Shown here piece after piece: positions 33,361 through 64,000 of a stretch of 64,000 bases of DNA. How positions within the stretch are numbered: position 1 is the first letter of the stretch; the number at the start of each line of letters is the position of its first letter. Position numbers and translations under genes: made by a program. Below the pieces are notes generated by a model. That model saw nothing but the letters and a program-made list of their open reading frames with translations, made no database searches and was not told the origin of the DNA. This DNA is from an uncultured Sphingomonadaceae bacterium (GTDB taxonomy: Bacteria > Pseudomonadota > Alphaproteobacteria > Sphingomonadales > Sphingomonadaceae), in the NCBI GenBank assembly GCA_947493955.1, contig CANLSQ010000003.1, forward strand, positions 310,001 through 374,000, in the 5' to 3' direction.

Positions 33361-34296
33361 TTATCGGGCACCCGCCATTCGGATCGCAAGAGCCGGATCG
33401 GTTGGATCGTTCCAGTCCTGTCGCGCCGCCCATTCGGCAAGTGGCGTCGGCCGAGTTTTAAAATATCTGGCCATTTCCGCTGTATCTGCGATGAGCGGTG
33501 ATATCGGCTGTTCATTATAGAAGCTGTAGAAGCTTGCCATACCGCTATAGATCGATTGGGGTTCGACAGTCGCCGATCCGGTGACCAACAAACTCATCGC
33601 GGATGCGAACTCGTCTGGTGTCATGCTTTTGAATGTGATGGGTTTCCCGGCCGCCTCGCTGAGGATCGAAGCAACCTCATTCCCAACCAGAGCTTGCGGT
33701 CCGCCAACAGCATAACGTCCACTCGGCAGATCATCATTTTGTAGCGCCTCGACCATGAAGGCAGCGACATCATCAAGGCAGATCCATGATATTTTCAGAT
33801 CCGGTTTGGCAGGATAGGCAAATATCGAACTGTTGACGATGGAGGGTTTGTTCCAGCTGCGGATCATATTGTCCATGAAGACCTTGGTTTCAAAAATGGC
33901 ATAGCTGACACCGCTATCGATAATCGCCATTTCAATCGCCCGGCGACCGTCATGCGCAGGGTTGCCGTTGTCTTCATCGGCTACATAACAGCTGGTGTTG
34001 AACACGATTTTCCGGACGCTGCTGGCTTTGGCTGCGGCTGCAATGTTACGACCGAGCTCGGTTGCCTTTTCAAGATCAAATACAAAGGGCAGGTGCATGG
34101 CAATGGCATCCATGCCCTGCGCCGCCGCGACCATGGATTGCTCGTCATATAGATCGGCTTCTACGGTCTCGACATTGGCAAAGGGCGTATTGGCCAGTGC
34201 AGCTGTATTGCGCAGCGCTGCCACCGGATGCAGGCCTGCCGCAAGCAAACGTTCTAGCAAAGGATGGCCTTGGTCGCCGGTTGCGCCGATGGTCAA
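33361..34296 (-). CDS. NmrA-like/atypical SDR family protein
   Basis: The 311-residue product has an NAD(P)-binding start TIGATGDQGHPLLERLLAAG, the NmrA-like G-x-T-G-x-x-G motif, with KIVFNTSCYV in the middle. The only listed start is a TTG at 34296. The family, however, begins a few residues earlier, and the sequence upstream is GAAGAGGATAGAACC then ATC (position 34305), AGA, ATA, TTG. An ATC start would give the usual strand R-I-L-T-I-G-A-T-G, so a rare start codon or a mutated ATG is possible. It is the last gene of the operon begun at 42027. Confidence 0.72.
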   Translation of the reverse strand: MTIGATGDQGHPLLERLLAAGLHPVAALRNTAALANTPFANVETVEADLYDEQSMVAAAQGMDAIAMHLPFVFDLEKATELGRNIAAAAKASSVRKIVFNTSCYVADEDNGNPAHDGRRAIEMAIIDSGVSYAIFETKVFMDNMIRSWNKPSIVNSSIFAYPAKPDLKISWICLDDVAAFMVEALQNDDLPSGRYAVGGPQALVGNEVASILSEAAGKPITFKSMTPDEFASAMSLLVTGSATVEPQSIYSGMASFYSFYNEQPISPLIADTAEMARYFKTRPTPLAEWAARQDWNDPTDPALAIRMAGAR

Positions 34297-34340
34297 TATT
34301 CTGATGGTTCTATCCTCTTCTCAAATTTCGTTGATTTTCT

Positions 34341-35960
34341 TTAGCTATTGATGCGCCGCGCGGCAGACCGGCCAGCGATATATCCGAAGGTCAAGGCAGG
34401 GCCGAGTGTTCCGCCTGCACCCGCATAGACCCCGCCGGTTGGACAGCTGATAACATTGCCTGCCGCGAACAGGCCTGGAATCGGCTCTCCTTGATGGTCA
34501 AGCACCTGCGCTGAACCATCGGTTTTTGCGCCTCCATTGGTGCCGAGTGTTCCCATGTGGATTTCCACCGCATAGAATGGGCCATTGGTGATTGGTCCTA
34601 ATGTCGCCGATGCGCCTTCACGTGAACGATCACCGTAGAAGCGGTCATATGCGCTCTCGCCGCGGCCGAAATCTGGATCATGCCCCTTGATTGCATGAGC
34701 GTTGAAATGGGCGACCGTTTCTTCCAGCCGCTCGCCATCAATATCTATTGCATCGCCAAGACTTCCCAGATCATCTGCACTGGTTATCCAGTCTGGAACT
34801 GCATCCCCAGGCATGACCGAAGCCAGCGGGTAGCGGGACATATATTGCGAATCGAAAATCAGATAAGCGGGCAAATTTGGATATGAATAGGTCGCCGGAT
34901 CAAATTGGTGAAAAGCCCCGGCTAGTGCAGAATAATTATTGGCCTCGTTGCAAAAGCGCTTCCCCGCTCCGTTGACCAATATAGTGTGCGGAAGCGTTCT
35001 TTCGATCAGTACCGGCATGGAGCGCTGCTCGCCGCCCTCCCATTTTACTTCGGGGATTGAAAGGGTCGGTACCCACCAGGCACTGGTCATATTGCCAAGG
35101 CTTGCCCCGGCGGCCATGGCCATTTTCAGACCATCGCCCTGGTTGCCCGGCGGCGAGGCGGGTGCATCCAGCGGGCCGCGCAAAAAGGCCTGTTTCAGCT
35201 CTTCATTCCATTCAAAACCGCCGGTTGCCAGTATTACACCTTGTGATGCGTTGATGGTCAAATCGGCGTCGTCGCGGCGGACCTTGGCCCCGGCTACGCG
35301 GCCATTTTCGACAATCAAGCGGTGGCCATCAACATCCAGCAAGGGTTCAATCCCGCGATCAAGGCAGGCCTTTAACAGACGCCCGATCAAAGCCTGTCCC
35401 CAGCCGCGTAGATCTTCGCTTTCGCGCCGGGCCATTTCGGCTGGATCAACTTGTCCGGTGCCGCCACCCAAAGGCGTTTCCCGCAGCATCATGCGCGGAG
35501 CGGGACCATGTTCAAAGACCTTGTCGGCCCAATCGCCGAGTGCGGAGAAGTCGAACAGATCATTATCGAGCGCGCGGCCGCCATCCGGTTTGGCCCCTGG
35601 CCGGTCGAGATAATAATCAGGATAGCCTTCCAGCAGGCTGAGTCTCGCCGCATCCAGATTTTCGAGAAAGCCTAATGCTTGTGGACCTTCCTCGACAAAG
35701 GCGGACAATACAGTGTCATCGATATCGCCCTGATCGAGAGAGCGGAAATAGGCGAGGGCGTCTTCGCGGCTATCTTCGATACCATGCACCTGCATTTGCC
35801 GGTTACCCGGTATCCAGACAATGCCACCCGATATTGCAGCGGTGCCGCCCAGTTTCGGCTGCTTTTCGATGACTGTGACGCTTGAACCGGCCTCATGCGC
35901 TGCCAGAGCAGCGCTCAGTCCAGCTGCACCGGCTCCGATGATCAGGACATCTGTGTTCAT
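34341..35960 (-). CDS. FAD-dependent 3-ketosteroid Δ1-dehydrogenase-like/fumarate-reductase-like oxidoreductase
   Basis: The 539-residue product begins MNTDVLIIGAGAAGLSAALA, the FAD-binding motif, followed by GGTAAISGGIVWIPGN. The C-terminus shows GPFYAVEIHMGTLGTNGGAKTD and GLFAAGNVIS then GAGGTLGPALTFGYIAGRSAA, as in the fumarate-reductase/KstD family. KstD enzymes introduce a double bond beside a keto group, but the substrate is not shown to be a steroid. A 97-base gap separates it from the CaiB gene; its ribosome-binding site AAGGGAGA can pair with TCTCCCTT about 20 bases away, so translation may be regulated. Confidence 0.8.
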   Translation of the reverse strand: MNTDVLIIGAGAAGLSAALAAHEAGSSVTVIEKQPKLGGTAAISGGIVWIPGNRQMQVHGIEDSREDALAYFRSLDQGDIDDTVLSAFVEEGPQALGFLENLDAARLSLLEGYPDYYLDRPGAKPDGGRALDNDLFDFSALGDWADKVFEHGPAPRMMLRETPLGGGTGQVDPAEMARRESEDLRGWGQALIGRLLKACLDRGIEPLLDVDGHRLIVENGRVAGAKVRRDDADLTINASQGVILATGGFEWNEELKQAFLRGPLDAPASPPGNQGDGLKMAMAAGASLGNMTSAWWVPTLSIPEVKWEGGEQRSMPVLIERTLPHTILVNGAGKRFCNEANNYSALAGAFHQFDPATYSYPNLPAYLIFDSQYMSRYPLASVMPGDAVPDWITSADDLGSLGDAIDIDGERLEETVAHFNAHAIKGHDPDFGRGESAYDRFYGDRSREGASATLGPITNGPFYAVEIHMGTLGTNGGAKTDGSAQVLDHQGEPIPGLFAAGNVISCPTGGVYAGAGGTLGPALTFGYIAGRSAARRINS

Positions 35961-36057: not shown

Positions 36058-37233
36058 CTAGTCCACGGCACCGACTTCCCGCAGAGTTTTTATTTGTTCC
36101 GGACTCAAGCCGAGTTCCTCCAGAATCGCATCGCTATGCTGACCGATGGTCGAAAGATTGGCGGATGCAGATGGCCGCGCCCCGTCCATTTCAATCGGCA
36201 GCGATGGCAGCTTGGTTTGCTGGCCATTGGCTAGTGTGACGGGTTCGAGACCACCACTGGTATTGAGATGCGGATCGTCGAACATGTCCTCAGGGCGTGC
36301 GATTGGGGCGAAGGGCAAGCCGGTGCCTTCAAGCTTCGCGATCAACTCATCTCGGCCAAAGCCAGCGATCAATTCCCGAATTTGCGGCATGATCCGGTCG
36401 CGTGCGGCAACCCGGTTGTTATTCTCACGGATGCTTTCATCTGCCCACAGATCGTCAAGCGCAAACAGCTTGCAGAATTTCTCCCATAGGGCATCGGTGA
36501 CCACACCAATGAAAATCGGTTCGTCCTTGGTCTGGAAAACATCATAAATAGCCCAGGCGGAGATGCGAGCAGGCATGGGGTCGGCGGCTTTACCGGTCAC
36601 GGCCATTTGCGCCATATGCTGGCCGATCAGATATATGGTGGTTTCAAAGAGCGAGCTTTGGACCTTTTGCCCTTTGCCGGTGCGGTGCCTTTCCTCAACC
36701 GCTGCCAATATTGCAATCACGCCGAACATGCCGCCTGTAACATCGATCACGCTGGAACCAGCACGCAATGGCTGTCCGGGCGGACCAGTCATATAGGCAA
36801 GTCCCCCCATCATCTGGGCCACTTCATCGAGGGCCGTTCGGTTTTCATAGGGTCCGGGAAGGAATCCTTTTTCCGAGGCGTAGATCAACCGTTTGTTGGA
36901 CTGGGCGAGCTCTTCATAGCCAAGTCCCAAACGATCCATTGCACCGGGACGGTAGTTTTCAACCAATATATCTGCGCCTTCAACAAGCTGGCGCGCTATA
37001 CCAAGCCCTTCACGATCTTTCAGGTTAAGTGAGATACTCTGTTTATGGCGGTTATACATAGGGAAGTAGCCAGAACCGGAGCCTACCAGATTGCGAGTTC
37101 TATCGCCGCCAATCGGCTCGACGCGGATCACTTCCGCGCCCAACGAGGCCAGAATGGCGCCCACTGCAGGTCCCATGACCATATGGGTGAACTCGATAAC
37201 TTTCAGGCCCGCTAGAGGTGTTGGCGCGCTCAT
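36058..37233 (-). CDS. CaiB/BaiF-family CoA-transferase
   Basis: The 391-residue product begins MSAPTPLAGLKVIEFTHMVMGPAVGAIL. It has SLNLKDREGLGIARQLVEGADILVENYRPGAMDRLGLGYEEL and later GSSVIDVTGGMFGVIAILAAV, in which the Asp of VID is the catalytic residue of family III CoA-transferases. Its start overlaps the stop of the HMG-CoA-lyase-like gene by four bases. The gene pair probably activates a hydroxy acid to its CoA ester and cleaves it. It is a paralogue of the CaiB gene at 27193. Confidence 0.9.
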   Translation of the reverse strand: MSAPTPLAGLKVIEFTHMVMGPAVGAILASLGAEVIRVEPIGGDRTRNLVGSGSGYFPMYNRHKQSISLNLKDREGLGIARQLVEGADILVENYRPGAMDRLGLGYEELAQSNKRLIYASEKGFLPGPYENRTALDEVAQMMGGLAYMTGPPGQPLRAGSSVIDVTGGMFGVIAILAAVEERHRTGKGQKVQSSLFETTIYLIGQHMAQMAVTGKAADPMPARISAWAIYDVFQTKDEPIFIGVVTDALWEKFCKLFALDDLWADESIRENNNRVAARDRIMPQIRELIAGFGRDELIAKLEGTGLPFAPIARPEDMFDDPHLNTSGGLEPVTLANGQQTKLPSLPIEMDGARPSASANLSTIGQHSDAILEELGLSPEQIKTLREVGAVD

Positions 37234-38162
37234 GCTGCAGCCCTTTCAAATCCCAGAGGAAGGCCCGCATCCGGAGTAAAGCCATAAAGTGGCTCTTCGG
37301 GCAGGGACGCTGCAATAATTTCTCTTACTTTCAGCAGCTTATCCAGATTAATGCCGGTATCAATACCCATGGCCTCCAGCATGAAAACCAGGTCTTCCGT
37401 AACGATGTTGCCCGAGGCGCCCGGTGCGAAGGGGCAGCCGCCCAAGCCTCCTAGCGAAGCATCAAAGGTGGTAATACCTTCCTCTAATCCTGCCATGACA
37501 TTCGCCAAGCCAAGTCCGCGAGTATTGTGGAGATGCAGCGTATTGAGCTTGTCGCTGCCAATCACACCCTTGATCTGGCGTACCATCCGTGTGACCTGCG
37601 CCGGATTGGCATAGCCGGTTGTGTCCGACAGGCCGACCTCGGCCACGCCCGCCTCCATCGCGGCTTCTGCGAGGCGCGCTACCTTGTCTTCGCTGACTGG
37701 CCCCTCGATGGTGCAACCAAAGGCAGTAGAGAGACCTACTTCAAAATGGGGACGCTGTCCTTCGGGCTGCGCAGCGACCAGATCGGCAATCGCTTTGATT
37801 TCGGCGAGCATTGCTGGATGATCTTTGCGCACGTTCTTGATGCTATGGGTTTCGGACATGGAAAAGGGGATCGACATTTTGTCGACGCCTGCTGCTATGG
37901 CTCTCTCCGCGCCTTTCAGATTGGGTATGAGCGTGACAACATCCAGATTGGGCAGGGTCTTCGCATAGGTCACAATTTCTGCGGTATCCGCCATTTGCGG
38001 TAGAAGGGATGGTGGTACGAAGCTTCCTACTTCAATCTCACTGACACCCGCCTCGGCCTCCGCTTTGATCCAGGCCTTTTTGGCTTCGGTCGGCATCACG
38101 GCATCAATGCTTTGCAGGCCATCGCGTGGTCCCACTTCGCTGATGGTTACAGACTTTGTCAT
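37230..38162 (-). CDS. HMG-CoA lyase-like aldolase
   Basis: The ATG at 38162 overlaps the LeuD-like stop by four bases and is preferred over a longer in-frame start. The 310-residue product starts MTKSVTISEVGPRDGLQSIDAVMP, with AFGCTIEGPV, DTTGYANPAQV and LGGLGGCPFAPGASGNIVTED (mobile-loop Cys). Like its paralogue at 26209 it should cleave a tertiary 3-hydroxyacyl-CoA. The order LeuC, LeuD, lyase, CoA-transferase suggests isomerisation of a hydroxy acid, activation to CoA ester and cleavage. Confidence 0.88.
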   Translation of the reverse strand: MTKSVTISEVGPRDGLQSIDAVMPTEAKKAWIKAEAEAGVSEIEVGSFVPPSLLPQMADTAEIVTYAKTLPNLDVVTLIPNLKGAERAIAAGVDKMSIPFSMSETHSIKNVRKDHPAMLAEIKAIADLVAAQPEGQRPHFEVGLSTAFGCTIEGPVSEDKVARLAEAAMEAGVAEVGLSDTTGYANPAQVTRMVRQIKGVIGSDKLNTLHLHNTRGLGLANVMAGLEEGITTFDASLGGLGGCPFAPGASGNIVTEDLVFMLEAMGIDTGINLDKLLKVREIIAASLPEEPLYGFTPDAGLPLGFERAAA

Positions 38163-38776
38163 TGTTTGGCTCCTAGGTAAATCCATGGCCGCGTTGCGCG
38201 GTCGGCCGTTTGCCATGCGGCAATGTCTTCGGCCATTTTCAAACTGAGGTCGATAGCATCCAATCCCTCCAGCAACATCGCTTTGGCTTCCTGATCAATC
38301 GGGAAAGACCAGTTCTGGTCTTCGCCAATGGTGATTTTCTGTGTGGCCAAGTTGATGGTAACAGGACAGTTCGCTTCTTCGATGATGGCTATCGCATCAG
38401 CATCCAAAACGGCTGGCAAGATACCGTTACGAACGCAGTTACCGGCAAAAATCGGTGCGAAGCTCGGGGCAATTACGGCCCGGAAACCATATTCGGCCAA
38501 TGCCCAAACAGCATGCTCGCGGCTTGACCCGCAACCGAAATTCGCGCCGCCCAGGATGATCTGGCTATCGGCATAATCAGGATCATTGAGTACAAAACTT
38601 GGATCAGGATCGCGGCCACCGATCGCGGTATAGCGCCATCCGGCGAATAGCCCGTCAGCAAGTCCGGTCTTGCCGGTGCTTTTCATCTCGCGTGAGGGGA
38701 TGATCTGGTCGGTGTCGACATTATCGCGGATCAACGGCATGGGCCGGGAGGTTAGGATGGAAAATGGTTCAGCCAT
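38159..38776 (-). CDS. LeuD-like small subunit of an aconitase-family dehydratase
   Basis: The ATG at 38776 overlaps the large-subunit stop by one base. The 205-residue product has MPLIRDNVDTDQIIPSREMK (substrate-binding D-x-D-T-D-Q-I-I-P) and NFGCGSSREHAVWAL, the signature of small subunits of isopropylmalate isomerase and related hydro-lyases. Sited inside a catabolic operon with no other leucine genes, it is probably not the leucine enzyme; 2,3-dimethylmalate, citramalate or related diacids are possible substrates by family knowledge. Confidence 0.85.
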   Translation of the reverse strand: MAEPFSILTSRPMPLIRDNVDTDQIIPSREMKSTGKTGLADGLFAGWRYTAIGGRDPDPSFVLNDPDYADSQIILGGANFGCGSSREHAVWALAEYGFRAVIAPSFAPIFAGNCVRNGILPAVLDADAIAIIEEANCPVTINLATQKITIGEDQNWSFPIDQEAKAMLLEGLDAIDLSLKMAEDIAAWQTADRATRPWIYLGAKQ

Positions 38777-40155
38777 CACAGCAGCTCCCGGACATCAGCA
38801 ATGGCACCTGCCAGCGCACTGGCGACAACCGTTTCGGGACTGGCAATATGGGTTTTGACGCCAGGTCCCTGACGGCTTTCAAAATTACGGTTGGTGGTAG
38901 AGATAACCCGTGCACCTGATCGAAAACTCTCACCTCCTGCATAGAAGCACATCGAACAGCCACTTTCCCGCCATTCAAACCCGGCTTCGCGAAAAATTGC
39001 ATCAATCCCTTCTGATTCAGCTTCGCGTTTGACGCGGGAGGAGCCGGGGACACAAATGGCTTGGACATGGTCAGCAATTCTCTTGCCCTTCAGTAGGGCG
39101 CTGGCTCGGCGCAGGTCGGACAAACGGCTATTAGTACAGCTGCCGATGAAAGCGGCATCTATTGGCGTGCCTTTAAGGCTCTGTCCTTTTTGTAACGCCA
39201 TATATTCGAGCGGGCGCTCGTCCGCATTTTCGGGTACGGTACCGCCAATACCAACACTATGTTCCGGACTGGTACCCCAACTGACCGTTGGTGTAATCGC
39301 GCTGGCATCTATTTTAATTTCTGCATCAAAAGTAGCGTCCACATCGCTGATCAGCTTTTTCCAGCTTTCAACGGCTTGGTCCCATTCAGCTCCTTTTGGC
39401 ACATAGCGACGACCCGTCAGATATTTGAAAGTCTTCCGATCAGGAGCGATGAACCCAGACATGGCGGAAAATTCCGTCGCCATGTTGCAGAGGGTCATCC
39501 GCCCTTCCATGTCGAGCGCGCGAACCGCGTCTCCGGCAAACTCCACTGCGTGTCCTTTGCCACCGGCCGCGCCATGGCTAGCGATCAATGTCATGATCAT
39601 GTCCTTGGGCGTGACGCTTTTTGATAACGACCCGGAAAAACAGACCCGCATGGATTTTGGCTTGTTCAACCGCAATGTTCCCGTCGCCATCGCATGTTCC
39701 GCTTCCGACGATCCGATACCCCAGGCTAACGCGCCAAATGCGCCCTGTGTGCAGGTATGACTGTCGGGTGCCACCAAGGTACATCCCGGTAGCACGATAC
39801 CCAGTTCCGGCGATATCACATGGACAATCCCCTGATCGGGATCGTTGACATCAAACAGGGTTATGCCAGCGGCTTTGGCAGCAGCTCTAGTTTCGGTGAT
39901 GAAAGCCTGCCCGCCAGGCATAAGGGTTTGGTCTGTCCGGCCCCGTCGGGTGTCCACAATATGGTCTGTGACGGCAAAGACGCGTGCCGGATCGACCACG
40001 GTGCGTCCGGCCTCAGCCAATGAATTGAGCGCTGACGCACCGGTGCGCTCGTGCAGAAAGACACGGTCGATCGCCACAAGTGCGCCATTGCCGGGCAAGG
40101 CGGCGACCACATGGCTATCCCACAACTTGTCAAAGAGCGTCGATGGTTCAGGCAG
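38776..40155 (-). CDS. LeuC-like large subunit of an aconitase-family dehydratase
   Basis: The 459-residue product carries the [4Fe-4S] Cys residues in IGSCTNSRLSDL and ESGCSMCFYAG, and PDSHTCTQGAFGALAWG. An annotated start at a TTG (40125) would begin inside the conserved N-terminus (LWDSHVVAALPG). Ten codons upstream a CTG at 40155 gives P-E-P-S-T-L-F-D-K-L-W, matching the family's usual L-(Y/F)-D-K-L-W start, and it overlaps the previous stop by eight bases. I prefer that CTG start. The protein should act with the LeuD-like subunit. Confidence 0.82.
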   Translation of the reverse strand: MPEPSTLFDKLWDSHVVAALPGNGALVAIDRVFLHERTGASALNSLAEAGRTVVDPARVFAVTDHIVDTRRGRTDQTLMPGGQAFITETRAAAKAAGITLFDVNDPDQGIVHVISPELGIVLPGCTLVAPDSHTCTQGAFGALAWGIGSSEAEHAMATGTLRLNKPKSMRVCFSGSLSKSVTPKDMIMTLIASHGAAGGKGHAVEFAGDAVRALDMEGRMTLCNMATEFSAMSGFIAPDRKTFKYLTGRRYVPKGAEWDQAVESWKKLISDVDATFDAEIKIDASAITPTVSWGTSPEHSVGIGGTVPENADERPLEYMALQKGQSLKGTPIDAAFIGSCTNSRLSDLRRASALLKGKRIADHVQAICVPGSSRVKREAESEGIDAIFREAGFEWRESGCSMCFYAGGESFRSGARVISTTNRNFESRQGPGVKTHIASPETVVASALAGAIADVRELL

Positions 40156-40648
40156 AAACAGCCCCCATTTCTATATCAACACTACGCCAATCCTTGGTCA
40201 CAAAAGTCTCCTGTATTGCGGTTCGCGTTTCCAGCAATCCGTTTCTTATCCAGTGCCACGTCCGGCAACGATTTTGGCCATCGTCGGAAATCTGGATCTG
40301 TTCATAAAGATAAAGTGATGGATCACCTTGCCGCTGCCAATATAACATCACGGTGCGGTTATATTCGTCCAGCGGTACTTCGGCGGCCCAACCCTTGATC
40401 AGCTCATTGTCCCACCAGACGCGTTTGTCGCGATATTCGGCCGGAAACTCGCGTATCTCGGTCTTCCCATCAGCCCATGTATAGTGGTTGGTCTGATGAT
40501 AAGGCACATCGCCTTGGTCCGGGAATCGGCACAGCAGGCGGGATGCATGCTCATCAATTTTCTCATTCTGCGCGTTGAAATAGGTGTAGGTGCCGTCCCA
40601 AACGCCTTCATGGCGGGCCAAAAGCGGCATGTCTTCTCTGATTCCCAT
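40148..40648 (-). CDS. DUF3598-like protein, paralogue of 59464-59934
   Basis: The 166-residue product starts MGIREDMPLLARHEGVWDGTY and has WADGKTEIREFPAEYRDKRVWWD and RTWHWIRNGLLETRTAI. A sister protein at 59464-59934 shares the order: HEGVWTGIY, a W-x-D-G element, LWWD and RTWHWF. Both are of DUF3598 type (lipocalin-like fold; function unknown). The start overlaps the alpha/beta-hydrolase stop by one base, and the LeuC-like gene overlaps the end. It is the second gene of the operon at the 42038 operator. Confidence 0.7.
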   Translation of the reverse strand: MGIREDMPLLARHEGVWDGTYTYFNAQNEKIDEHASRLLCRFPDQGDVPYHQTNHYTWADGKTEIREFPAEYRDKRVWWDNELIKGWAAEVPLDEYNRTVMLYWQRQGDPSLYLYEQIQISDDGQNRCRTWHWIRNGLLETRTAIQETFVTKDWRSVDIEMGAVSA

Positions 40649-42027: not shown

Positions 42028-42037
42028 AAGAACCTTT

Positions 42038-42065
42038 ATTTGTCCGGACAAATTTGTCTCGACAA
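42038..42065. promoter_or_regulatory. CCGG-palindrome operator, divergent promoter (two adjacent sites)
   Basis: A perfect 16-base palindrome ATTTGTCCGGACAAAT (42038-42053) is followed by a second, less perfect one, TTGTCTCGACAA (42054-42065), their centres 14 bases apart. It stands between the divergent operons starting at 42027 and 42117. The pairing of sites suggests cooperative binding of a dimeric regulator. Confidence 0.8.
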
Positions 42066-42116
42066 GTCTTTTTTGCAGATTATTGTCTTTTTATCGAATC
42101 CGGAGAGAAAAACCCA

Positions 42117-42797
42117 ATGACATTAATTGGCACGAAAATGGTCCAGGATGGCCGTACTGCGCGCGAGATTTTTGAAGAAGTGATCGGCAATCCCGCTCGA
42201 AAGAAATTTGGCTTTGGTGAAAAACTTGCCATCGTCAATGTCGATGTGCAGCAGGCCTATACACGAACAGACATGTTCAAGACTGCCTACGAAACTGATC
42301 CGAAGCAGATCGACTATGTTAATCAGATTTCGGCTCTCGCACGGGCCAAAGACATGCCGGTCATCTGGAGCCGGGTGGCTTACAAGGGTGACGCCGGGGA
42401 TGCCGGAGTCTGGGGCACACGAACAGATACCGAAGATTCGCTGCAGAATATCAAATATGACAGCGAGCGCCATTTGCTGGATCCGCGCTGTGATGTGAAT
42501 GCCGACGATCTGCAATATACCAAACGTATGCCGAGCGCGTTTTTCGAAACGCCGCTGGCGAGCTATCTGACATGGCACAAAGTCGATACGGTGGTGGTGA
42601 CCGGCGGCTCTACATCTGGTTGCGTGCGTGCCACGGCGGTAGACGCCCTAAGTCATGGATATCGTACAATCGTGCCGATCGAAACCTGTGCCGATAAACA
42701 TGAAAGCTATCATTTTGCCAACCTGACTGACTTGCAGCTGAAATATGCAGATGTCGAACCGGTACAGGCCGTGATTGACTGGCTGGAGGCGCGCTAG
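42117..42797 (+). CDS. Isochorismatase-family cysteine hydrolase
   Basis: The ATG at 42117 follows CGGAGAG. The 226-residue product has the family triad: Asp43 in VNVDVQQAYT, Lys136 in QYTKRMPSAFF, and the nucleophile Cys169 in GGSTSGCVRATAVDALSHGY. The S-G-C-V-R-A-T motif is that of N-carbamoylsarcosine-amidohydrolase-like and nicotinamidase-like enzymes. It probably hydrolyses an amide or carbamoyl group. It starts a seven-gene operon in which every stop overlaps the next start. Confidence 0.85.
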   Translation: MTLIGTKMVQDGRTAREIFEEVIGNPARKKFGFGEKLAIVNVDVQQAYTRTDMFKTAYETDPKQIDYVNQISALARAKDMPVIWSRVAYKGDAGDAGVWGTRTDTEDSLQNIKYDSERHLLDPRCDVNADDLQYTKRMPSAFFETPLASYLTWHKVDTVVVTGGSTSGCVRATAVDALSHGYRTIVPIETCADKHESYHFANLTDLQLKYADVEPVQAVIDWLEAR

Positions 42798-49242: not shown

Positions 49243-49294
49243 CCCATTCTCCTTGTCTTTCTTCATGCCAGTGCATTTTTCTCTTGCCAAGAGG

Positions 49295-49312
49295 AATTTG
49301 TCCGGACAAATT
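49295..49312. promoter_or_regulatory. CCGG-palindrome operator, divergent promoter
   Basis: AATTTGTCCGGACAAATT, a perfect 18-base palindrome, between the starts at 49242 (minus strand) and 49351 (plus strand). It is the most perfect copy of the operator in this region. Confidence 0.82.
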
Positions 49313-52888: not shown

Positions 52889-52894
52889 CTCGTT

Positions 52895-55804: not shown

Positions 55805-55822
55805 AATTTGTCCGGACATATT
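55805..55822. promoter_or_regulatory. CCGG-palindrome operator before the MFS operon
   Basis: AATTTGTCCGGACATATT differs from the consensus AATTTGTCCGGACAAATT at one position. It lies 19 bases before the MFS start at 55785 (minus strand). Confidence 0.75.
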
Positions 55823-55906: not shown

Positions 55907-58207
55907 CTAGTTGACACGGCCACCAAATTTATATGTGGCTCGTATGGTCCAGCGTCCCGGCTGGTTGAAATAGGTGTCCTGGTTGCCGAAAGAGGCCACC
56001 AGATACCGCTTGTTGAAGCAGTTGGAACATTCGACAGCGAGGTTCAGCTGATCTCCAAAGGGCTTGAAGTCGATGCCAGCGTTTACGAGAACATAGCCAT
56101 CTGCCGGGCCAACGCCGCGGGTTGATACTTCCTGATCCGATACCATACGAATGCTACCGCGCGGGCTGATCATCGCATCACCGATTTCGATATCATAGGA
56201 TCCGCCCAGCGTTACTTGAGCATCCGGACTGCGTTTAGGTTCGATCAGTTCGCAATTCACATCAAAAACCGACACGGTGCCATTCGGCGGAACGCAAGCG
56301 GCTATATCGGCCTCACTGGCTTCATATCGGGCATCCATTATACCCAGCGCCGCGTAGAGATTCAGATTCCGAACCGGACTAATAAACGCTTCCACCTCAA
56401 GGCCGGTATTGAGCAACTTACCCGCGTTACCGATGGCAAATACGCCTTGGGCAATGGCCGTGTTGACCTGCAGGTCTTTGGCCTCGAGATAGAAGGCGGT
56501 CGCAGCTATGGAGAAGTCACGACCGAAATTCAGCCTTGTGCCAGCTTCATAAGACCAGACTTTCTCCGATCCAAAGGGTTGCAGTCCGGATGCCGTATTG
56601 ACACGAGCGTTCCAGCCGCCGGAGCGGAAACCACGGGTGGCAGAAGCGTAGAACATCAAATCATCATCGGGCTCAAACTGCAGAGCAAAGCGCGGTGTCC
56701 AAACTTTCTCGCGCTGGTCGATGGGAATGCCGAGCGCAATCATGTTTGCCGTAGTCAGGTCTGTAATATCACCGATCGGGCGATTATCCGAAATGCGAAA
56801 GTCCTTTTTCTCATCCGTGTAACGCACACCGGCTGTGGCGGTAATCTGGTCGGAGAGCGCGAAATCGCCTTGGATATAGCCAGCGATATTTTCCGTATCA
56901 TTGCTGATTATCCGATCGCGTGATGGTGTCGGCCCGGCAAAATAGGCGGCAAAGTCACTGCGGTTCTCTTCTTTCAAATAGAACAAGCCAGCTGTCAGGT
57001 TAAGGAAATCGTCAAACAGCGAACCGTTATATTTGAGTTCAGCCGAATATTGTTTGAAATCGCCAATATTGTCGATGATGAAAATATCGTCCAGCGCCGG
57101 ATTGGCAGGTGATGGAAACTGCATGAACGCATCAAATTGCGGTAATGGGAAATTTACCAGAAAGTCATTTTCAACCTTGCGATAGCCCATGATCAACGAA
57201 ATGGATCCATTGTCCATTTGATATGTAAGATTGGATGACGTGTTATAGGATTTGGTCAGGCTGCCATAATCCGCCTTGGACACGGCGCCCGGGAAAACGG
57301 CATCCAGCCCCAGGGGGAGGATGGAGGTTGATACCAGATCAACATCACCATAATTGCCAGATGTTCTGATTGGCCCGGTGGCAGCGTCGGTATCCAGATT
57401 GATATCCCGGCCTGTAATGTTGGTACCGCTATCGCGAATATAGTCGCCGACGACATACCAGTTGAGATCGTCCGTCAGGTCGATGTCAATGGCGATGCGG
57501 CCGCCATAAGCGTTGCGGTCATTGATATTGCGGTCGAGGGCCGTGTTTTCCAGCCAGCCATTATCATCAACATAGAATCCGCTGACAAGAAACCGGACAC
57601 GTTCTGATAGCGGTAAATCAACAGAACCGCGCAACGTCACTTCATCGAACCGGCCATAGCTGACCTCGGCAAAGCCGCCAAATTCTTCACCGGGCTTGCG
57701 CAGCACAACATTGATAGCGCCGCCGGTGGTGTTCTTGCCAAACAGGGTTCCCTGAGGGCCCCGAAGAACTTCTGTTCGCTCAATATCGAACAGGGCGATA
57801 TTGTTGCCGTTCTGGCGCGCATAGAAAATCTCGTCGACATAGGTGCCTACGGCGGGGTCGAACGTCGGGAAGGATTCATCCTGACCTTGTCCGCGCAGGA
57901 AGTAGACATTGGCACTTCCCAGCGAAGTGTTGTTGCTGCCGACCAGATTGGGAAGGGTATCGACGAGATCGATGGTTTTCTTCACCGCCAAAGTATCGAG
58001 CTGCTTTGGGGTAAAAGCGGAAATCGCGATCGGAACATCCTGGATGCTTTGCTCACGACGCTGGGCGGTCACGATGATGACGTTATCGCTGGTTTCAGCT
58101 GCATCTGATTGATCGCCGTTATTTGCATGGGCGGGCGCGCCCGCCAAAGCAGTTAGCGTCAATCCAAAAATGGCAGTATTTCGATAGATTGCTTTGCGCG
58201 TTGTCAT
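55907..58207 (-). CDS. TonB-dependent outer-membrane receptor
   Basis: The ATG at 58207 gives 766 residues with a signal ending GAPAHANNG. The TonB box region is NVIIVTAQRREQSIQDVPIAISAF, the plug shows RTEVLRGPQGTLFGKNTTGGAINV, and the barrel ends in WTIRATYKFGGRVN. The usual terminal Phe stands four residues inside the end, so the last residues are slightly extended. It carries a CCGG operator 48 bases upstream and a separate GTTAGCGCTAAC palindrome further upstream. It probably imports the substrate of the surrounding regulon. Confidence 0.92.
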   Translation of the reverse strand: MTTRKAIYRNTAIFGLTLTALAGAPAHANNGDQSDAAETSDNVIIVTAQRREQSIQDVPIAISAFTPKQLDTLAVKKTIDLVDTLPNLVGSNNTSLGSANVYFLRGQGQDESFPTFDPAVGTYVDEIFYARQNGNNIALFDIERTEVLRGPQGTLFGKNTTGGAINVVLRKPGEEFGGFAEVSYGRFDEVTLRGSVDLPLSERVRFLVSGFYVDDNGWLENTALDRNINDRNAYGGRIAIDIDLTDDLNWYVVGDYIRDSGTNITGRDINLDTDAATGPIRTSGNYGDVDLVSTSILPLGLDAVFPGAVSKADYGSLTKSYNTSSNLTYQMDNGSISLIMGYRKVENDFLVNFPLPQFDAFMQFPSPANPALDDIFIIDNIGDFKQYSAELKYNGSLFDDFLNLTAGLFYLKEENRSDFAAYFAGPTPSRDRIISNDTENIAGYIQGDFALSDQITATAGVRYTDEKKDFRISDNRPIGDITDLTTANMIALGIPIDQREKVWTPRFALQFEPDDDLMFYASATRGFRSGGWNARVNTASGLQPFGSEKVWSYEAGTRLNFGRDFSIAATAFYLEAKDLQVNTAIAQGVFAIGNAGKLLNTGLEVEAFISPVRNLNLYAALGIMDARYEASEADIAACVPPNGTVSVFDVNCELIEPKRSPDAQVTLGGSYDIEIGDAMISPRGSIRMVSDQEVSTRGVGPADGYVLVNAGIDFKPFGDQLNLAVECSNCFNKRYLVASFGNQDTYFNQPGRWTIRATYKFGGRVN

Positions 58208-58255
58208 TTTCGTCTCCCTGGTTCCGGACATGAACAGAATGCTTGATGTGCATTC

Positions 58256-58273
58256 AAGTTGTCCAGACAAATT
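58256..58273. promoter_or_regulatory. CCGG-palindrome operator before the TonB receptor
   Basis: AAGTTGTCCAGACAAATT differs from the consensus at two positions, one in the centre (CCAG instead of CCGG). It is the weakest of the six copies but stands in the correct place, 48 bases before the ATG. Confidence 0.65.
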
Positions 58274-58358: not shown

Positions 58359-59348
58359 CTATGGCTTTTCCGCCACAGTCATCCCGCGCAACTGATTGAT
58401 GCCGACAATAGATCGGCAGGCGGCGACCAGTTCGTTTTTCAGGCTCTGGGCTGCAGGCTGCAGCAAGGAATTACGGCGAATCGCAAAATAGGCGGTACGG
58501 GCGACCGGAAACTCTGTCCCCTCAATGATATGATATTGGGCGCGTTCCTCTTCCGTTGCGAACAATTCCTTGGCGAGCAGCATGACCGCGTCGCTTTGCA
58601 ACAGGGTTGATTTGGCGAGGATGACCGAATCCATATCGACATATTTGGCTGGTGGGGAAAGGCCGGCAGCGAGAAACACGTTGCAGATGCGCTGCCATTG
58701 CATCTGGAGCTGCATGGATACCAGCCATGTCTGTGAAGACAGATCCTCCAGCGTAATGTCGGTTTTTGATGCGAGCGGATGATCGCGCCGCATCATGATA
58801 ACATCTCGATCCTCAAACATCTCGGTCGTGTCGATGGCGTTGTCGATTTCGAGATCGGAGGGCGGGGCGCTGGCGACAAATTCAACCTCCCCGCGCAGCA
58901 GCTTCTCGTAGAGCGTTTTGGTGTCGCCTGAGGTGATGCTCAGCGTCACGCCTGGCTGTTTCTCGCTGAAACGATTGATCACCATCGGGGCAATGCGGGT
59001 AAGGAAGGACCAGCCGAGGCCGATGCGTACATAGCCACGATCCGCACCGCGCATGGCACTGATTTCTGCAGCTGCGAGCCGGCTTTCGGCGGTAATGACT
59101 TTGGCGCGGCGGGCCAGCGCATGGCCGAACTGTGTGGGTTCAGCGCCAAACGCGCCCCGTTCGAACAGCCGCACACTGAGTGTCTCTTCCAGCTTTGCAA
59201 CGCTTTTGGAAACGGCCTGCTGGCTGACATCATTATTGCTGGCGGCGCGGGAAAAACTGCCTGTGTCATAGACGGACAGAAAATGCTGCAATTTCTGCGG
59301 ATCCATCGATGGCTTGATGAAGCGTTGGCGCAAGTCGGGTTCGGTCAT
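58359..59348 (-). CDS. LysR-type transcriptional regulator
   Basis: The ATG at 59348 follows GGAGAGGAA and gives 329 residues. The winged helix-turn-helix is visible in LQHFLSVYDTGSFSRAASNNDVSQQAVSKSVAKLEETL, with RLFERG. The C-terminal effector domain has GYVRIGLGWSFLTRIAPMVI and LLRGEVEFVASAPP. It is the only regulator encoded in the right-hand locus, so it may control some of it, but six CCGG palindromes need not be its sites. It is divergent from the DUF3598-like gene at 59464. Confidence 0.9.
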   Translation of the reverse strand: MTEPDLRQRFIKPSMDPQKLQHFLSVYDTGSFSRAASNNDVSQQAVSKSVAKLEETLSVRLFERGAFGAEPTQFGHALARRAKVITAESRLAAAEISAMRGADRGYVRIGLGWSFLTRIAPMVINRFSEKQPGVTLSITSGDTKTLYEKLLRGEVEFVASAPPSDLEIDNAIDTTEMFEDRDVIMMRRDHPLASKTDITLEDLSSQTWLVSMQLQMQWQRICNVFLAAGLSPPAKYVDMDSVILAKSTLLQSDAVMLLAKELFATEEERAQYHIIEGTEFPVARTAYFAIRRNSLLQPAAQSLKNELVAACRSIVGINQLRGMTVAEKP

Positions 59349-59966: not shown

Positions 59967-59984
59967 AATTTGTCCGGACATATA
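59967..59984. promoter_or_regulatory. CCGG-palindrome operator before the CopD-like gene
   Basis: AATTTGTCCGGACATATA, two positions from consensus, 40 bases before the ATG at 60025. The adjoining TGATCATCAGATGATCA (59985-60001) is an independent 17-base inverted repeat. Confidence 0.75.
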
Positions 59985-60024: not shown

Positions 60025-60711
60025 ATGATAGAACTTTTCAACTTTTCCTTTTATCAGCTGCTGGTCTTTGTCCACATCCTGCTGTTTGTCCTGTGGCTCG
60101 GTGCTGATGTCGGCGTCTTCATGCTCGGCCAGCATTTTCGCAAGCGGGAGAAATATGATCTGCCGCAGCGTTTGATTCTGCTGCAACTGCTCGTCAATCT
60201 TGACATGACGCCGCGCACCGCCTGGGCCTTGATGGTGCCACTTACGATAACGATGGTCGATGCCGGGGGCTGGTGGGACGTGCCGGTCTGGGGTGTGGCA
60301 CTCTCCTGGGTCGTCGGGGCTGTCTGGCTGTGGCTGGTCTGGGATGCGCATATCCATGACCAGACCGAGCGCGCTGCACGGGATCGGAAAATCGAGTTTG
60401 TACTGAAAATCGGCCTAACCGCTTTTTACCTTGGCCTGGGCACTCTTTCGTTGGTGCAAGGCGAGCCGCTTATGCCGGTATGGCTCGCGACCAAGGCGCT
60501 CATGTTCGGCCTGATTTTCGCTGCAGCCATCATGATCGATGTTGCATTCAAGCCAGTTGGCCCACAGCTTGGCAAACTGATTGCGGAAGGATCATCGGAT
60601 GAAACCGAAATTCCGTTGCGTAAGACAATGGACACCACTCGCATCTGGGTCTGGATCGTCTATCTGTTGCTGCTCGCCACGGCGTTTCTCGGCAATATCA
60701 AGCCATTTTAG
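60025..60711 (+). CDS. CopD-like integral membrane protein, copy 2
   Basis: The 228-residue product starts with LVFVHILLFVLWLGADVGVF, in which the His and W-L-G match copy 1 (WIHILAMVYWLGGEWGVF). It has about six spans and ends LLLLATAFLGNIKPF, against FLGAVKPF in copy 1. The two genes are 10 kb apart, in the same orientation and each behind the CCGG operator. No function is known. Confidence 0.7.
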   Translation: MIELFNFSFYQLLVFVHILLFVLWLGADVGVFMLGQHFRKREKYDLPQRLILLQLLVNLDMTPRTAWALMVPLTITMVDAGGWWDVPVWGVALSWVVGAVWLWLVWDAHIHDQTERAARDRKIEFVLKIGLTAFYLGLGTLSLVQGEPLMPVWLATKALMFGLIFAAAIMIDVAFKPVGPQLGKLIAEGSSDETEIPLRKTMDTTRIWVWIVYLLLLATAFLGNIKPF

Positions 60712-60714
60712 GGC

Positions 60715-60771: not shown

Positions 60772-61680
60772 TTATTTCTTGTCCGCTTCGGCTGCCCGCT
60801 CCGCATCAATCATTTTCTTGAACACGGTCCAGGTCGTTTCATTCTTGCGCGGATCATCGCCAGGAGGCGGTGCGGTATATTCTGGATAGTTAAGGGCAAT
60901 CTCATCCTTGATCACATCCGGCAGTTCATCATAGCTTTTCAGCTTCGCGCCCATTGCGTTAAAGACCATCTGTCCTTGCCGTCCGCGCATTTTCATCCAT
61001 GGCATCCAGTCTGAAATCCGGACCCAGCTGATCGACGGATAGGCGGTTGGGTTTTTGGTATCGAGAATTTCGTCTGCGAGCATCGTGAAGTCGAAAATCT
61101 CCATTGCGTGATATTTATTGCCAACATAATCCTGATAATTGCCCGCCAAAACATTATGGTAGAAGAGCGGTACTTCGATCGGCATGAACATCCAGTTGCC
61201 CTGCTGCCGGATATTGGGAAGCGTGTAAGGCGTGCCATCGGCGCGATATGGGTAGTTGGGACGGCTGTTAACCGGATCATTGGCGATTTGCATGACCTTG
61301 ACGGTCTCTCCCGTCCAGGGATTATCCCATGTGCGCAGTACCTCGTTGGTCTTGGGATCAAGATAGAACATGACTTCGCGGCTGACCTGCCGGTAACCGA
61401 CACCACGTTTGGGGTCTTCAATCCGCACACATTGCCGGATATTCATGCCTTCGCCATTATAAAGATGCCGATCAGGTTCACCCTGTACGCGGGAATAGAC
61501 TTTTCCCGACCAGTGATAAACAGCCGGTACGCCATCAGCGGTCCCGCATTGTGTTCGCTTCATGATCTCCAAGGCATCTTCCGGTTTTTCCGGGTCAAGC
61601 ATCCGCGCTGCAGAAGGGCTGGCCAAAGCAAAAGATGCCATCATCGTCGCCAGAGCTGTTTGCCTAAAAAATCGATTCAT
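60772..61680 (-). CDS. Exported DUF1838-family protein
   Basis: The ATG at 61680 after GGGAGAAG gives 302 residues with a signal (ALATMMASFALASPSAARML). The mature part has QCGTADGVPAVYHWSGKVYSRVQGEPDRHLYNGEG, EVMFYLDPKTNEVLRTWDNPWTGETVKV and WMFMPIEVPLFYHN, all typical of DUF1838. The family is periplasmic or exported, and its role is unknown. The operator at 61748-61765 is shared with the divergent CitE-type gene. Confidence 0.78.
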   Translation of the reverse strand: MNRFFRQTALATMMASFALASPSAARMLDPEKPEDALEIMKRTQCGTADGVPAVYHWSGKVYSRVQGEPDRHLYNGEGMNIRQCVRIEDPKRGVGYRQVSREVMFYLDPKTNEVLRTWDNPWTGETVKVMQIANDPVNSRPNYPYRADGTPYTLPNIRQQGNWMFMPIEVPLFYHNVLAGNYQDYVGNKYHAMEIFDFTMLADEILDTKNPTAYPSISWVRISDWMPWMKMRGRQGQMVFNAMGAKLKSYDELPDVIKDEIALNYPEYTAPPPGDDPRKNETTWTVFKKMIDAERAAEADKK

Positions 61681-61747
61681 TTCACGCTTCTCCCTAAAAA
61701 TCATGTCGAGTGATCATGCAATTAATTTCACTTTCTGGTTGACTTTA

Positions 61748-61765
61748 GATTTGTCCGGACAAATT
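61748..61765. promoter_or_regulatory. CCGG-palindrome operator, divergent promoter
   Basis: GATTTGTCCGGACAAATT is one position from consensus and stands between the starts at 61680 (minus strand) and 61790 (plus strand), 24 bases before the latter. Confidence 0.8.
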
Positions 61766-61789
61766 GTGAAGAGGTAATATTGATCGAAC

Positions 61790-62617
61790 ATGATAATGGA
61801 CCCTATGACCGGTTTTACCAACTTCCTTTTTGTGCCTGCCAATCGACCCGAACGCTTTGAAAAAGCAGCGAATAGCGGTGCAGATCTGATTTGTATCGAC
61901 CTTGAGGATTCGGTCCCTGCAGATCAAAAAGACAGCGCCCGCGAATCTGTCTTGGATGGCCTGAAAACGCTCGACCGGTCAAAAACCGCGGTGCGAATCA
62001 ATGGTATAAAGACTGCGTCGGGTCTGGCCGATCTGCTTGCGCTATCGGCCGCTGATCATCTTCCCTCCCTGCTTTTCCTGCCGATGGTGGAAAGTGCTGC
62101 CGATGTTGAAATTGCCCATTGTATCTTGGGCGACCGGGTTGATGGTCTGGTGCCGCTGATCGAAACGGTCAAAGGCTTGCGTGCTGGCGACGAGATTGCC
62201 GCCAGCGCTGGCGTTACTGGCATGATGTTTGGTGGCGGAGATTTTTCTGCGGAGCTTGGAACGAAACTGGAATGGGAGCCGCTTCTGGCAGCACGCGGTG
62301 CGTTTATCCTCTGCTGCGCTTCGGCGGCGATCGCCGCGATTGATGTTCCCTATATCGATATGGGAAATGAGGCCGGGCTGGAAGAAGAATCCGCCAGGGC
62401 AAAAGCAATGGGCTTTCATGCAAAGGCTGCAATCCATCCAAAACAGATTGCTGCCATTGCCAAGGCGATGAAACCGACGGAGGCTGAAGTGGCCGAAGCG
62501 ATAGACGCAATAAATGCATTTGATGCAGCAGGCGGCAAAGCGATTAGCCATAATGGGCGTATGCTGGAGGCTCCGGTTATGCAACGATACAGGCATATCG
62601 CGGCAGCAGCCGGATAA
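61790..62617 (+). CDS. CitE/HpcH-family CoA-ester lyase
   Basis: The ATG at 61790 is used; ATGs at 61796 and 61805 are alternatives. The 275-residue product has FLFVPANRPERFEKAANSGADLICIDLEDSVP, the phosphate- and metal-site region, GMMFGGGDFSAELG and KAAIHPKQIAAI. The family cleaves malyl-, methylmalyl- or citramalyl-type CoA esters. It begins a plus-strand run with MaoC and acyl-CoA dehydrogenase genes, consistent with dehydrogenation, hydration and cleavage of a CoA ester. Confidence 0.88.
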   Translation: MIMDPMTGFTNFLFVPANRPERFEKAANSGADLICIDLEDSVPADQKDSARESVLDGLKTLDRSKTAVRINGIKTASGLADLLALSAADHLPSLLFLPMVESAADVEIAHCILGDRVDGLVPLIETVKGLRAGDEIAASAGVTGMMFGGGDFSAELGTKLEWEPLLAARGAFILCCASAAIAAIDVPYIDMGNEAGLEEESARAKAMGFHAKAAIHPKQIAAIAKAMKPTEAEVAEAIDAINAFDAAGGKAISHNGRMLEAPVMQRYRHIAAAAG

Positions 62618-62656
62618 AACAGAAGAACAGAATGTTTAATCAACAAGGACAAATAT

Positions 62657-63166
62657 ATGCGTGATGGAGTTATAGAAGTCAGCCCGGGCCGTTTCCGCGA
62701 AACATTCGGACGCTATTTTGAAGATTTTGAAGTCGGTCATATTTACGAGCATCGTCCCGGCCGGACAATCACCGATACCGACAATGTGCACTTCACCTTG
62801 CTGACGATGAACACGCATCCTGCGCATTTCGACTATGAATTTGCCAAGAAAACGGAATTTGAAAAGCCGCTGGTCTGCTCTCCGCTTACCGTTGCGTTGA
62901 TGGTCGGGATGAGCGTTTCGGATACCAGCCAGAAAGCGGTGGCCAATCTTGGTTGGGACAAGATCCGCCTGACCCATCCGCTATTTCCTGGCGATACACT
63001 TTATGCAGAGAGCGAAGTGCTGGAAAAGCGCGAATCTTCGTCTCGTCCTGAACAGGGCATTGTGACGATCAAGACGATTGGCAAAAACCAAGACGATAAA
63101 GTCGTGTGCACGTTTGAACGCACCATGCTGATCTGGAAGCGCGGCTTTGGCGGCGCAGACGATTAA
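62657..63166 (+). CDS. MaoC-family dehydratase
   Basis: The 169-residue product shows RTITDTDNVHFTLLTMNTHPAHFDYEFA, the hydratase-2 motif with the catalytic Asp and His, followed by DTSQKAVANLGWDKIRLTHPLFPGDTLYAESEVLEKR. It resembles mesaconyl-CoA hydratase-type MaoC proteins. It follows the CitE-like gene by 39 bases. It probably hydrates an enoyl-CoA formed by the adjacent dehydrogenase. Confidence 0.88.
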   Translation: MRDGVIEVSPGRFRETFGRYFEDFEVGHIYEHRPGRTITDTDNVHFTLLTMNTHPAHFDYEFAKKTEFEKPLVCSPLTVALMVGMSVSDTSQKAVANLGWDKIRLTHPLFPGDTLYAESEVLEKRESSSRPEQGIVTIKTIGKNQDDKVVCTFERTMLIWKRGFGGADD

Positions 63167-63215
63167 ATAAAAGGGGGAGGGGACCCCAGTTTTAAGACAC
63201 TCAGGAGCGACAATA

Positions 63216-64000
63216 ATGGCAACGGCAATTGATAATGCACAGCATATGATTGATCCGGAAGAAGAACAGGCTTTCATGGATGCAATCCAGAAATGGATCG
63301 ACCGTTCGGTGAAACCTGTCGTCATGGAACATGACCACGAAGATAAATGGCCGGAGCAGCTGGTTGGCGAAATGGCCGACATGGGGCTGTTTGGTGCAAC
63401 CATCGGCGAGGAATATGGCGGCCTCGGCCTCCCGGCTACCAGCTATGCGAAAATCGTTGCCGAAATAGCCTCGCACTGGATGGCGATAACCGGGATATTC
63501 AATTCACACTTGATCATGGCCTGTGCGGTTGAGCGTTTTGGTACGGCAGAGCAGAAAGCCAAATGGTTGCCCAAATTTGCCAGCGGTGAAATTCGTGGTG
63601 GACTGGCGCTGACCGAGCCGAATGCCGGAACCGATCTACAGGCGATCCGTACCACGGCGGTCCGCGACGGCGATGAATATGTCATCAACGGGACCAAGAC
63701 CTGGATTTCCAATGGGATTAACGGAAGCTGCTTTGCGCTGCTGGTGAAAACCGATCCCAAGGCAGATCCGCGCTACAAGGGTATGAGTCTGATGATCGCA
63801 CCGAAGGGTGAGGGCTTTACGGTTGGCAAGAAATTCAAAAAACTGGGCTATAACAGCATCGATAGCGCGGAACTGGTATTTGATAATTATCGGATCCCGG
63901 CAGAAAATCTGATTGGCGGTGTTGAAGGGCAAGGATTTTTTCAGGCCACCGGCGGTCTGGAACTGGGCCGCATCAACGTCGCGGCGCGGGGCGTTGGCCT
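63216..64000 (+). CDS. Acyl-CoA dehydrogenase (3' end cut by window edge)
   Basis: The ATG at 63216 follows CAGGAGCG and opens MATAIDNAQHMIDPEEEQAF. The visible 261 codons carry GGLALTEPNAGTDLQAI, INGTKTWISNGINGSCFALLVKTD and GQGFFQATGGLELGRINVAARG. The C-terminal catalytic region is outside the window, so subunit type cannot be judged; ELGRINVAARG shows Glu at the helix position also used by glutaryl-type enzymes. It follows CitE and MaoC genes. Confidence 0.9.
   Translation, partial: MATAIDNAQHMIDPEEEQAFMDAIQKWIDRSVKPVVMEHDHEDKWPEQLVGEMADMGLFGATIGEEYGGLGLPATSYAKIVAEIASHWMAITGIFNSHLIMACAVERFGTAEQKAKWLPKFASGEIRGGLALTEPNAGTDLQAIRTTAVRDGDEYVINGTKTWISNGINGSCFALLVKTDPKADPRYKGMSLMIAPKGEGFTVGKKFKKLGYNSIDSAELVFDNYRIPAENLIGGVEGQGFFQATGGLELGRINVAARGVG

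Follow-up and report, generated by a model that had tools for sequence, protein, structure and literature searches.

An array of palindromic sites and its probable GntR-family regulator in a catabolic gene cluster of a Sphingomonadaceae bacterium

Palindromic sites at the heads of catabolic operons

The stretch of DNA analyzed here (the window) is 64,000 nucleotides long, C3:310001-374000, and comes from contig CANLSQ010000003.1 (C3) of the genome of an uncultured Sphingomonadaceae bacterium (GCA_947493955.1; 3,405,287 bases, 8 contigs). Its right part holds catabolic operons, a TonB-dependent receptor gene and genes for membrane proteins, and copies of an 18-letter palindrome, AATTTGTCCGGACAAATT, lie in front of them. 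We propose, from sequence comparisons, that this palindrome is probably (roughly 0.85) the operator of a single regulator of the GntR family, HutC subfamily, encoded within the same cluster. Positions without a contig name are those of the window.

Searched with up to three mismatches, the window gave seven matches to the palindrome, compared to a mean of 0.05 and a maximum of 1 in 100 shuffles of the same stretch. Six of these, at 42037, 49295, 55805, 58256, 59967 and 61748, have 0–2 mismatches and correspond to six promoter regions. The seventh, at 51842, has three mismatches; it is uncertain and possibly of chance origin.

42037..42054: putative operator between the alpha/beta-hydrolase operon (minus strand) and the isochorismatase operon (plus strand)
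49295..49312: putative operator, an exact palindrome, between 48514-49266 (minus strand) and the CopD-like gene 49351-50043 (plus strand)
51842..51859: weak match within the nitrilase gene, with 3 mismatches
55805..55822: putative operator 19 bp upstream of the MFS/FAD-oxidase/nitrilase/methyltransferase operon (minus strand)
58256..58273: putative operator 24 bp upstream of the TonB receptor gene (minus strand)
59967..59984: putative operator 40 bp upstream of the CopD-like gene 60025-60711 (plus strand)
61748..61765: putative operator between the DUF1838 gene (minus strand) and the CitE operon (plus strand)

An earlier, sequence-only reading of this DNA had pointed out six palindromes in promoter regions, and all six were recovered, the first of them starting at 42037 rather than 42038. 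It had also seen no obvious copies in the left 40 kb, and no palindrome was found left of 42037 at up to three mismatches. Where it had counted at least eight transcription units facing the sites, we count nine genes or operons. The regulon was said to be previously unnoted; no description of it was among the open-access papers listed, and in the open-access library the core string appears only in an unrelated Drosophila study.

Across the whole genome there are 15 matches at up to three mismatches (reversed-pattern control, 3). Fourteen lie within 51.8 kb, C3:352037-403798, or 1.5% of the genome (binomial probability 5e-25 under an even spread), and the remaining one is on contig C1. The genome-wide scan that the sequence-only reading had proposed thus places 14 of 15 sites in one 52-kb cluster and does not scatter them over unrelated genes. 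The array runs past the right edge of the window, with about half of its stretch beyond, where seven sites are found (C3:392096, 394316, 394434, 397140, 397187, 402161 and 403781). Thirteen of the 14 clustered sites precede one or more start codons by 9–88 bp, given that start codons were chosen by rule, that gene calls came from a simple longest-ORF script, and that several antisense or over-long open reading frames (ORFs) were manually removed or exchanged for others. Together, the clustered sites face about 16 genes or operons, including the nine in the window. Over ten regions, 52 of 64 sites are not deep in an ORF, compared to 21% at random. Two looser scans added little: the 12-letter core with one mismatch matches 25 places in the genome versus 16 for the control, which is too loose, and a sigma-70 scan (19 promoter-like sites versus 14.3 expected) was not informative.

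Some sites come in pairs. A weaker tandem copy (4 mismatches) lies at 42051-42068, beside the putative operator at 42037. In G142, G060, G591 and several Erythrobacter loci as well, operon heads repeatedly carry either tandem sites with a spacing of 14 bp or pairs with one of 39–43 bp. These arrangements may reflect cooperative binding.

A GntR protein encoded within the array

A Pfam search of the genome for the GntR domain returned five hits, four of them above the cut-off. One, at C3:377208-377396, falls inside the array and belongs to the following gene.

C3:376689-377468, minus strand: GntR-UTRA regulator of 259 amino acids, 2.7 kb right of the window end, within the array

This gene (gntR) is antisense to a row of plus-strand genes, between a CoA-transferase gene and an MmgE/PrpD gene. 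Its product has an N-terminal GntR domain (PF00392, 60.9 bits, cut-off 27) and a C-terminal UTRA domain (PF07702, 55.7 bits, cut-off 23.8). The best relative of solved structure is NagR/YvoA (phmmer E 1.2e-15); DasR stands lower on the same list (E 2.9e-9). We compared the proteins of this genome by tblastn with six regions of other genomes that hold gntR and sites, and gntR is the only one of the cluster's two regulator genes found in all six, a presence that is partly by construction, as the regions were chosen around gntR and sites. A site lies just upstream of gntR in G022, G400, G038, L085, L086 and L088. Among 80 loci of named species (see below), seven have a site near the gntR start, four of these with 4 mismatches.

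Co-occurrence of regulator and palindrome

We assign the palindrome to this protein because the two co-occur in two samples of genomes and because the spacing of the palindrome is of the HutC type. For the first sample, 397 genomes of the family were surveyed for orthologs at E ≤ 1e-30 and for the motif ATTTGTCCGGACAAAT, 16 letters, with at most one mismatch, a pattern that finds 11 places in the genome under study versus 15 with the 18-letter scan. The GntR ortholog occurs in 50 genomes, the motif in 58 and both in 49. Hence the motif is present in 49 of 50 genomes with the ortholog (G132 being the exception), versus 9 of 347 without it, and the site totals are 270 and 10, respectively. All 41 genomes with at least three sites have the ortholog.

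Eight of the nine motif genomes that lack the ortholog have one site, and G170 has two. Since the reversed pattern also yields one match in a few genomes (e.g. G068, G107, G134, G192 and G364), single sites are near chance; in G170 the control matches once at up to two mismatches. A profile search of the nine genomes at E ≤ 1e-10 gave matches only in G291 (2.5e-11 and 3.1e-11), covering part of the profile. The second, hold-out sample was drawn from genomes absent from the first: 19 from the order that carry the ortholog (E ≤ 1e-50) and 40 from the family that lack it, the latter taken by running handle number. The motif was found in 18 of the 19 (all but G525), four of them with a single site, and in none of the 40. 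The clustering of the sites and this close co-occurrence argue for one regulon under one regulator, much as the sequence-only reading had supposed.

We then considered named relatives, namely the best 80 of 400 GntR profile matches, one genome per species. They include Sphingorhabdus, Parasphingorhabdus marina, Erythrobacter, Altererythrobacter, Blastomonas, Novosphingobium, Sphingobium, Sphingomonas and Sandarakinorhabdus, as well as the gammaproteobacterium Steroidobacter agaridevorans; Peristeroidobacter agariperforans is also listed. Sites at up to three mismatches of 18 were found at 69 of the 80 loci (164 sites; reversed pattern, 0), including those of the laboratory strains Parasphingorhabdus marina DSM 22363 (L134) and Blastomonas natatoria DSM 3183 (L122). 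Of the 11 loci without a site, 10 extend for under 4 kb in the direction in which the nearest site is usually found. At up to two mismatches, the whole genomes of Steroidobacter and Peristeroidobacter contain seven and six sites, respectively (control, 0). In the 8-Mb Steroidobacter genome, three sites lie within 21 kb of gntR and one lies elsewhere; the other three form a second cluster on a different contig. That second cluster (L166, C1:1028001-1048000) encodes proteins matching the FAD oxidase (38%), nitrilase (37%), TonB receptor (29%) and LysR protein (28%) of the present cluster.

Sequence of the probable operator and base-reading residues

A symmetrized matrix of 224 distinct sites shows a near-invariant TGTC...GACA with A/T-rich arms, although these sites were picked at up to three mismatches to the query and the matrix therefore leans toward it. 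Beyond 18–20 bp there is almost no conservation of the flanks. In the palindrome, TTTGT-CCGG-ACAAA, GT and AC are 4 nt apart. This is the usual distance in HutC operators, while FadR sites have 2–3 nt; the typical central consensus of HutC sites is GTMTAKAC, and members of the subfamily with quite different sites are named in the same source (PMC4494728).

NagR reads G-5 with Arg38 and G-4 with Arg48, and its wing is anchored by Gly69 (PMC4333415). These residues align with Ser51, Arg61 and Gly82 of the cluster GntR. All 80 named relatives share Arg61 and Gly82, whereas position 51 is Ser in 48, Thr in 24, Ala in 5, Asn in 3 and Arg in none. The corresponding bases of the palindrome are G (-4) and T (-5). 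The protein resembles NagR/YvoA of Bacillus subtilis and DasR of Streptomyces, repressors of amino-sugar use, in its helix-turn-helix (HTH) plus UTRA layout, in its proposed palindromic GT-N4-AC operator and in the conserved equivalents of Arg48 and Gly69. It differs from them in that both halves of the palindrome carry T instead of G at -5, the Arg38 equivalent is lost, and no amino-sugar genes were recognized among the cluster targets.

Alternative regulators and mode of action

The sequence-only reading had named the LysR protein of 58359-59348 as the sole regulator encoded in the window and as a candidate reader of the palindrome, through its T-N11-A. The LysR gene does sit in the cluster, and its orthologs, present in 34 of 397 genomes, are enriched among genomes with the motif (20/58 versus 14/339). 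However, at E ≤ 1e-30 the ortholog is missing from 38 of the 58 motif genomes, including G089 and G309 of the same genus with eight and nine sites, and it is unmatched in four of the six compared regions. We consider this protein an extremely unlikely reader of the motif. Nor is it the only regulator encoded in the window, as a GntR-FCD protein is found at 28382-29035; we rejected that protein as well, since GT and AC are 2–3 nt apart in sites of its FadR type and no palindrome is nearby. (It was matched in one of the six compared regions, G218, a weak point because the regions are centred elsewhere.) At 28382-29906, the GntR-FCD gene stands beside an Asp/Glu/hydantoin racemase gene, without a palindrome, and the two likely form a separate small regulon.

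A TetR protein, or another regulator from outside the cluster, was the other candidate, and the sequence-only reading had considered a TetR-type regulator from outside the window as likely as the LysR. The genome does hold 25 matches to TetR_N, and co-occurrence with the whole cluster does not fully exclude an outside regulator. Yet none of the 25 is within 170 kb of the array and none lies on C3 right of 179669; the nearest on that contig, at 179529, precedes the first site by about 172 kb. In addition, if the regulator were common to the family, genomes lacking the cluster would be expected to have sites too, but we found only 10 sites in 347 genomes and none in the 40 hold-outs, and the HutC spacing points to GntR. 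A regulator of this kind is therefore very unlikely. The view that the palindromes belong to some mobile or repeated element and play no part in regulation can practically be dismissed: we found no support for it, and against it stand the near absence of flank conservation, the placement of sites before starts and their presence at the heads of orthologous operons in other genera.

This leaves the cluster GntR, for which repression relieved by a pathway metabolite appears, by analogy, to be the best mechanism. A dimer would bind the palindrome and block the promoters of the roughly 16 genes or operons; a metabolite binding the UTRA domain would release it from the DNA, and outer-membrane receptors, transporters and enzymes would thereby be induced jointly. 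Some GntR proteins are activators, and several operon heads carry paired sites at a spacing of 14 or about 40 bp, so the same protein might activate instead, or do both. We regard this as unlikely, because a dimer bound 9–88 bp from the start codon would cover the promoter or the early transcript. HutC proteins are mostly repressors, and DasR is said to be one. NagR, too, is described as a repressor (PMC4333415). A comparable case of uptake and catabolism joined by a single repressor in a sphingomonad is PheR of Sphingobium SHPJ-2, although that protein is of the IclR family, with another operator and an aromatic hydrocarbon substrate (PMC13273656).

Several points weigh against our assignment. 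The centre of the palindrome is CCGG, and its two middle letters depart from the MTAK of GTMTAKAC. The match between loss of Arg38 and T-5 was noticed post hoc, and natural NagR sites often have T at -5 in one half-site despite Arg38 (PMC4333415), so it is a weak consistency check only. In the genome under study, gntR itself is not preceded by a full site. Co-occurrence alone cannot fully distinguish GntR from the rest of a cluster that is passed on as one block, and members of a single genus share descent and are not independent events. G132 has the ortholog (C1:1238258-1239001) and no site at up to two mismatches (the control matches twice there), and G525 has the ortholog and no site at up to one mismatch; specificity has perhaps changed in these genomes, or the gene is perhaps a relic. 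L073, with 9.1 kb of flank and no site, is a true miss. In G072, 31 sites (up to two mismatches) are scattered genome-wide and do not form a cluster; the same regulator perhaps controls a larger regulon there. Finally, repression is preferred over activation because of site position and family habit.

Gene content of the cluster

The tblastn comparison delimits a conserved block from 36058 to about C3:403.8 kb, a cluster of about 58 kb. In the six regions there was no ortholog-like match for 33361-35960 or for genes right of the block (ring hydroxylase, LuxR). The genes of the block that lie in the window, and the LuxR gene, are as follows.

36058..42027, minus strand: operon for CoA-transferase III, HMGL-like lyase, LeuD-like and LeuC-like proteins, a weakly DUF3598-like protein and an alpha/beta hydrolase
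42117..48524, plus strand: operon for an isochorismatase-like amidase, two PuuE-like proteins (ORFs overlap), aldehyde dehydrogenase, a methyltransferase-like protein and zinc alcohol dehydrogenase (ADH)
48514..49266, minus strand: conserved protein with weak DUF3108 similarity (E 0.0065, below cut-off)
49351..50043, plus strand: membrane protein labelled CopD-like in the sequence-only reading; no Pfam family over cut-off
50122..55785, minus strand: operon for a small protein, a methyltransferase-like protein, a nitrilase-family protein, a GlcD-type FAD oxidase and an MFS transporter
55907..58231, minus strand: TonB-dependent receptor
58359..59348, minus strand: LysR-type regulator, matched in two of the six compared regions
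60025..60711, plus strand: second CopD-like membrane protein; no Pfam match
60772..61704, minus strand: DUF1838 protein
61790..64000, plus strand: start of a gene row with a RipC/CitE-like lyase, an Ich/RipB-like hydratase and acyl-CoA dehydrogenase; same-strand genes continue to C3:386662
L003:12744-13556: LuxR-type protein, right of the conserved cluster

All six genes of the first operon are matched, at 53–88%, in G364, G285, G218 and G060. G142 has all but 40148-40648, whose match is 37% and elsewhere, and the stretch fetched from G108 is limited to the LeuC/LeuD and alpha/beta-hydrolase genes and likewise lacks 40148-40648. The LeuCD-like pair at 38159-40125, in a catabolic operon, is a paralog; another LeuC is encoded at C1:29275 and scores 774 bits, versus 516 for the cluster protein. 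The best solved matches of the isochorismatase-like amidase are an isochorismatase-family hydrolase and N-carbamoylsarcosine amidohydrolase. The products of 49351-50043 and 60025-60711 are related-looking membrane proteins, each gene with an operator ahead of it. Two genes at 22254-26178, outside the units headed by sites, have matches of 82–85% identity near the cluster in G364 and G218.

The cluster as a whole encodes lyases and CoA enzymes (HMGL-like lyase, RipC/CitE-like lyase, three family III CoA-transferases and a PaaK-like ligase), hydrolases (isochorismatase-like amidase, three PuuE-like proteins, an amidase and two nitrilase-family proteins) and oxidoreductases (GlcD-type oxidase, aldehyde dehydrogenase, acyl-CoA dehydrogenase, a short-chain dehydrogenase/reductase (SDR) and flavin amine oxidase). 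Further genes specify LeuC/LeuD-like and Ich/RipB-like hydratases, two MmgE/PrpD proteins, a HapK-like protein and several small unknowns, and transport is represented by two MFS transporters and three TonB receptors. Gene content varies, and relatives do not all hold every gene. Steroidobacter retains most of 36058 to C3:386662, minus DUF1838, LysR and 49351-50043; in its fetched stretches the right part of the cluster is absent beyond weak matches. The 20 kb fetched from G038 encode GntR (38% identical), two PrpD proteins, PaaK-like, amidase, HapK and SDR proteins, with a site between gntR and prpD, and this set is plausibly the core of the regulon.

A possible pathway

No account of the cluster or its substrate was among the open-access papers listed, and the gene list was compared with known systems. 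With the itaconate genes RipA/B/C (Ict, Ich, Ccl) it shares a CoA-transferase III, an Ich/RipB-like hydratase (E 1.7e-71) and a RipC/Ccl-like lyase (E 1.6e-67) in one operon. Unlike that system, these genes are embedded in a far larger set with amide-hydrolysing enzymes, and the RipB- and RipC-like proteins score below the NCBIfam cut-offs (239.7 versus 340 bits and 227.9 versus 375 bits, respectively). Three proteins match the allantoinase PuuE (E 1.1e-31, 1.8e-28 and 1.4e-74), at 110, 99.4 and 250.8 bits, below the TIGR03212 cut-off of 424.6 bits; in contrast to PuuE, no other purine-ring genes were recognized among the scanned cluster genes. The cyclic imidases HxnM and, from P. putida, CIH belong with PuuE among the closest known systems; HxnM, described as related to PuuE, opens an imide (PMC9304392).

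Because PuuE-like ring openers, amidases and nitrilases are followed by a CoA route for branched dicarboxylates, the gene content suggests, with less confidence than for the regulator, that the pathway degrades a cyclic amide, imide or ureide. Carbon would be channelled as branched dicarboxylates via the CoA-transferases, the Ich-like hydratase and the CitE/HMGL-type lyases. A narrower guess that fits the gene list, though quite unlikely to be right, is a dedicated, hitherto undescribed pathway for pyrrole-derived compounds (chlorophyll, haem or bilin breakdown products) under one GntR repressor. TonB receptors would import such compounds and oxidases would give substituted maleimides, which PuuE-like imidases and isochorismatase/amidase enzymes would open and deaminate to dialkylmaleates. 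LeuCD-like hydratase, CoA-transferases and HMGL/CitE-type lyases would then cut these to pyruvate and acyl-CoA.

With the assignment of the palindrome to the cluster GntR, catabolic operons across sphingomonads and Steroidobacter become a single unit that probably has one switch. Once this switch is deleted or titrated, the pathway should come on without any knowledge of the substrate, which makes the question of the substrate directly testable.

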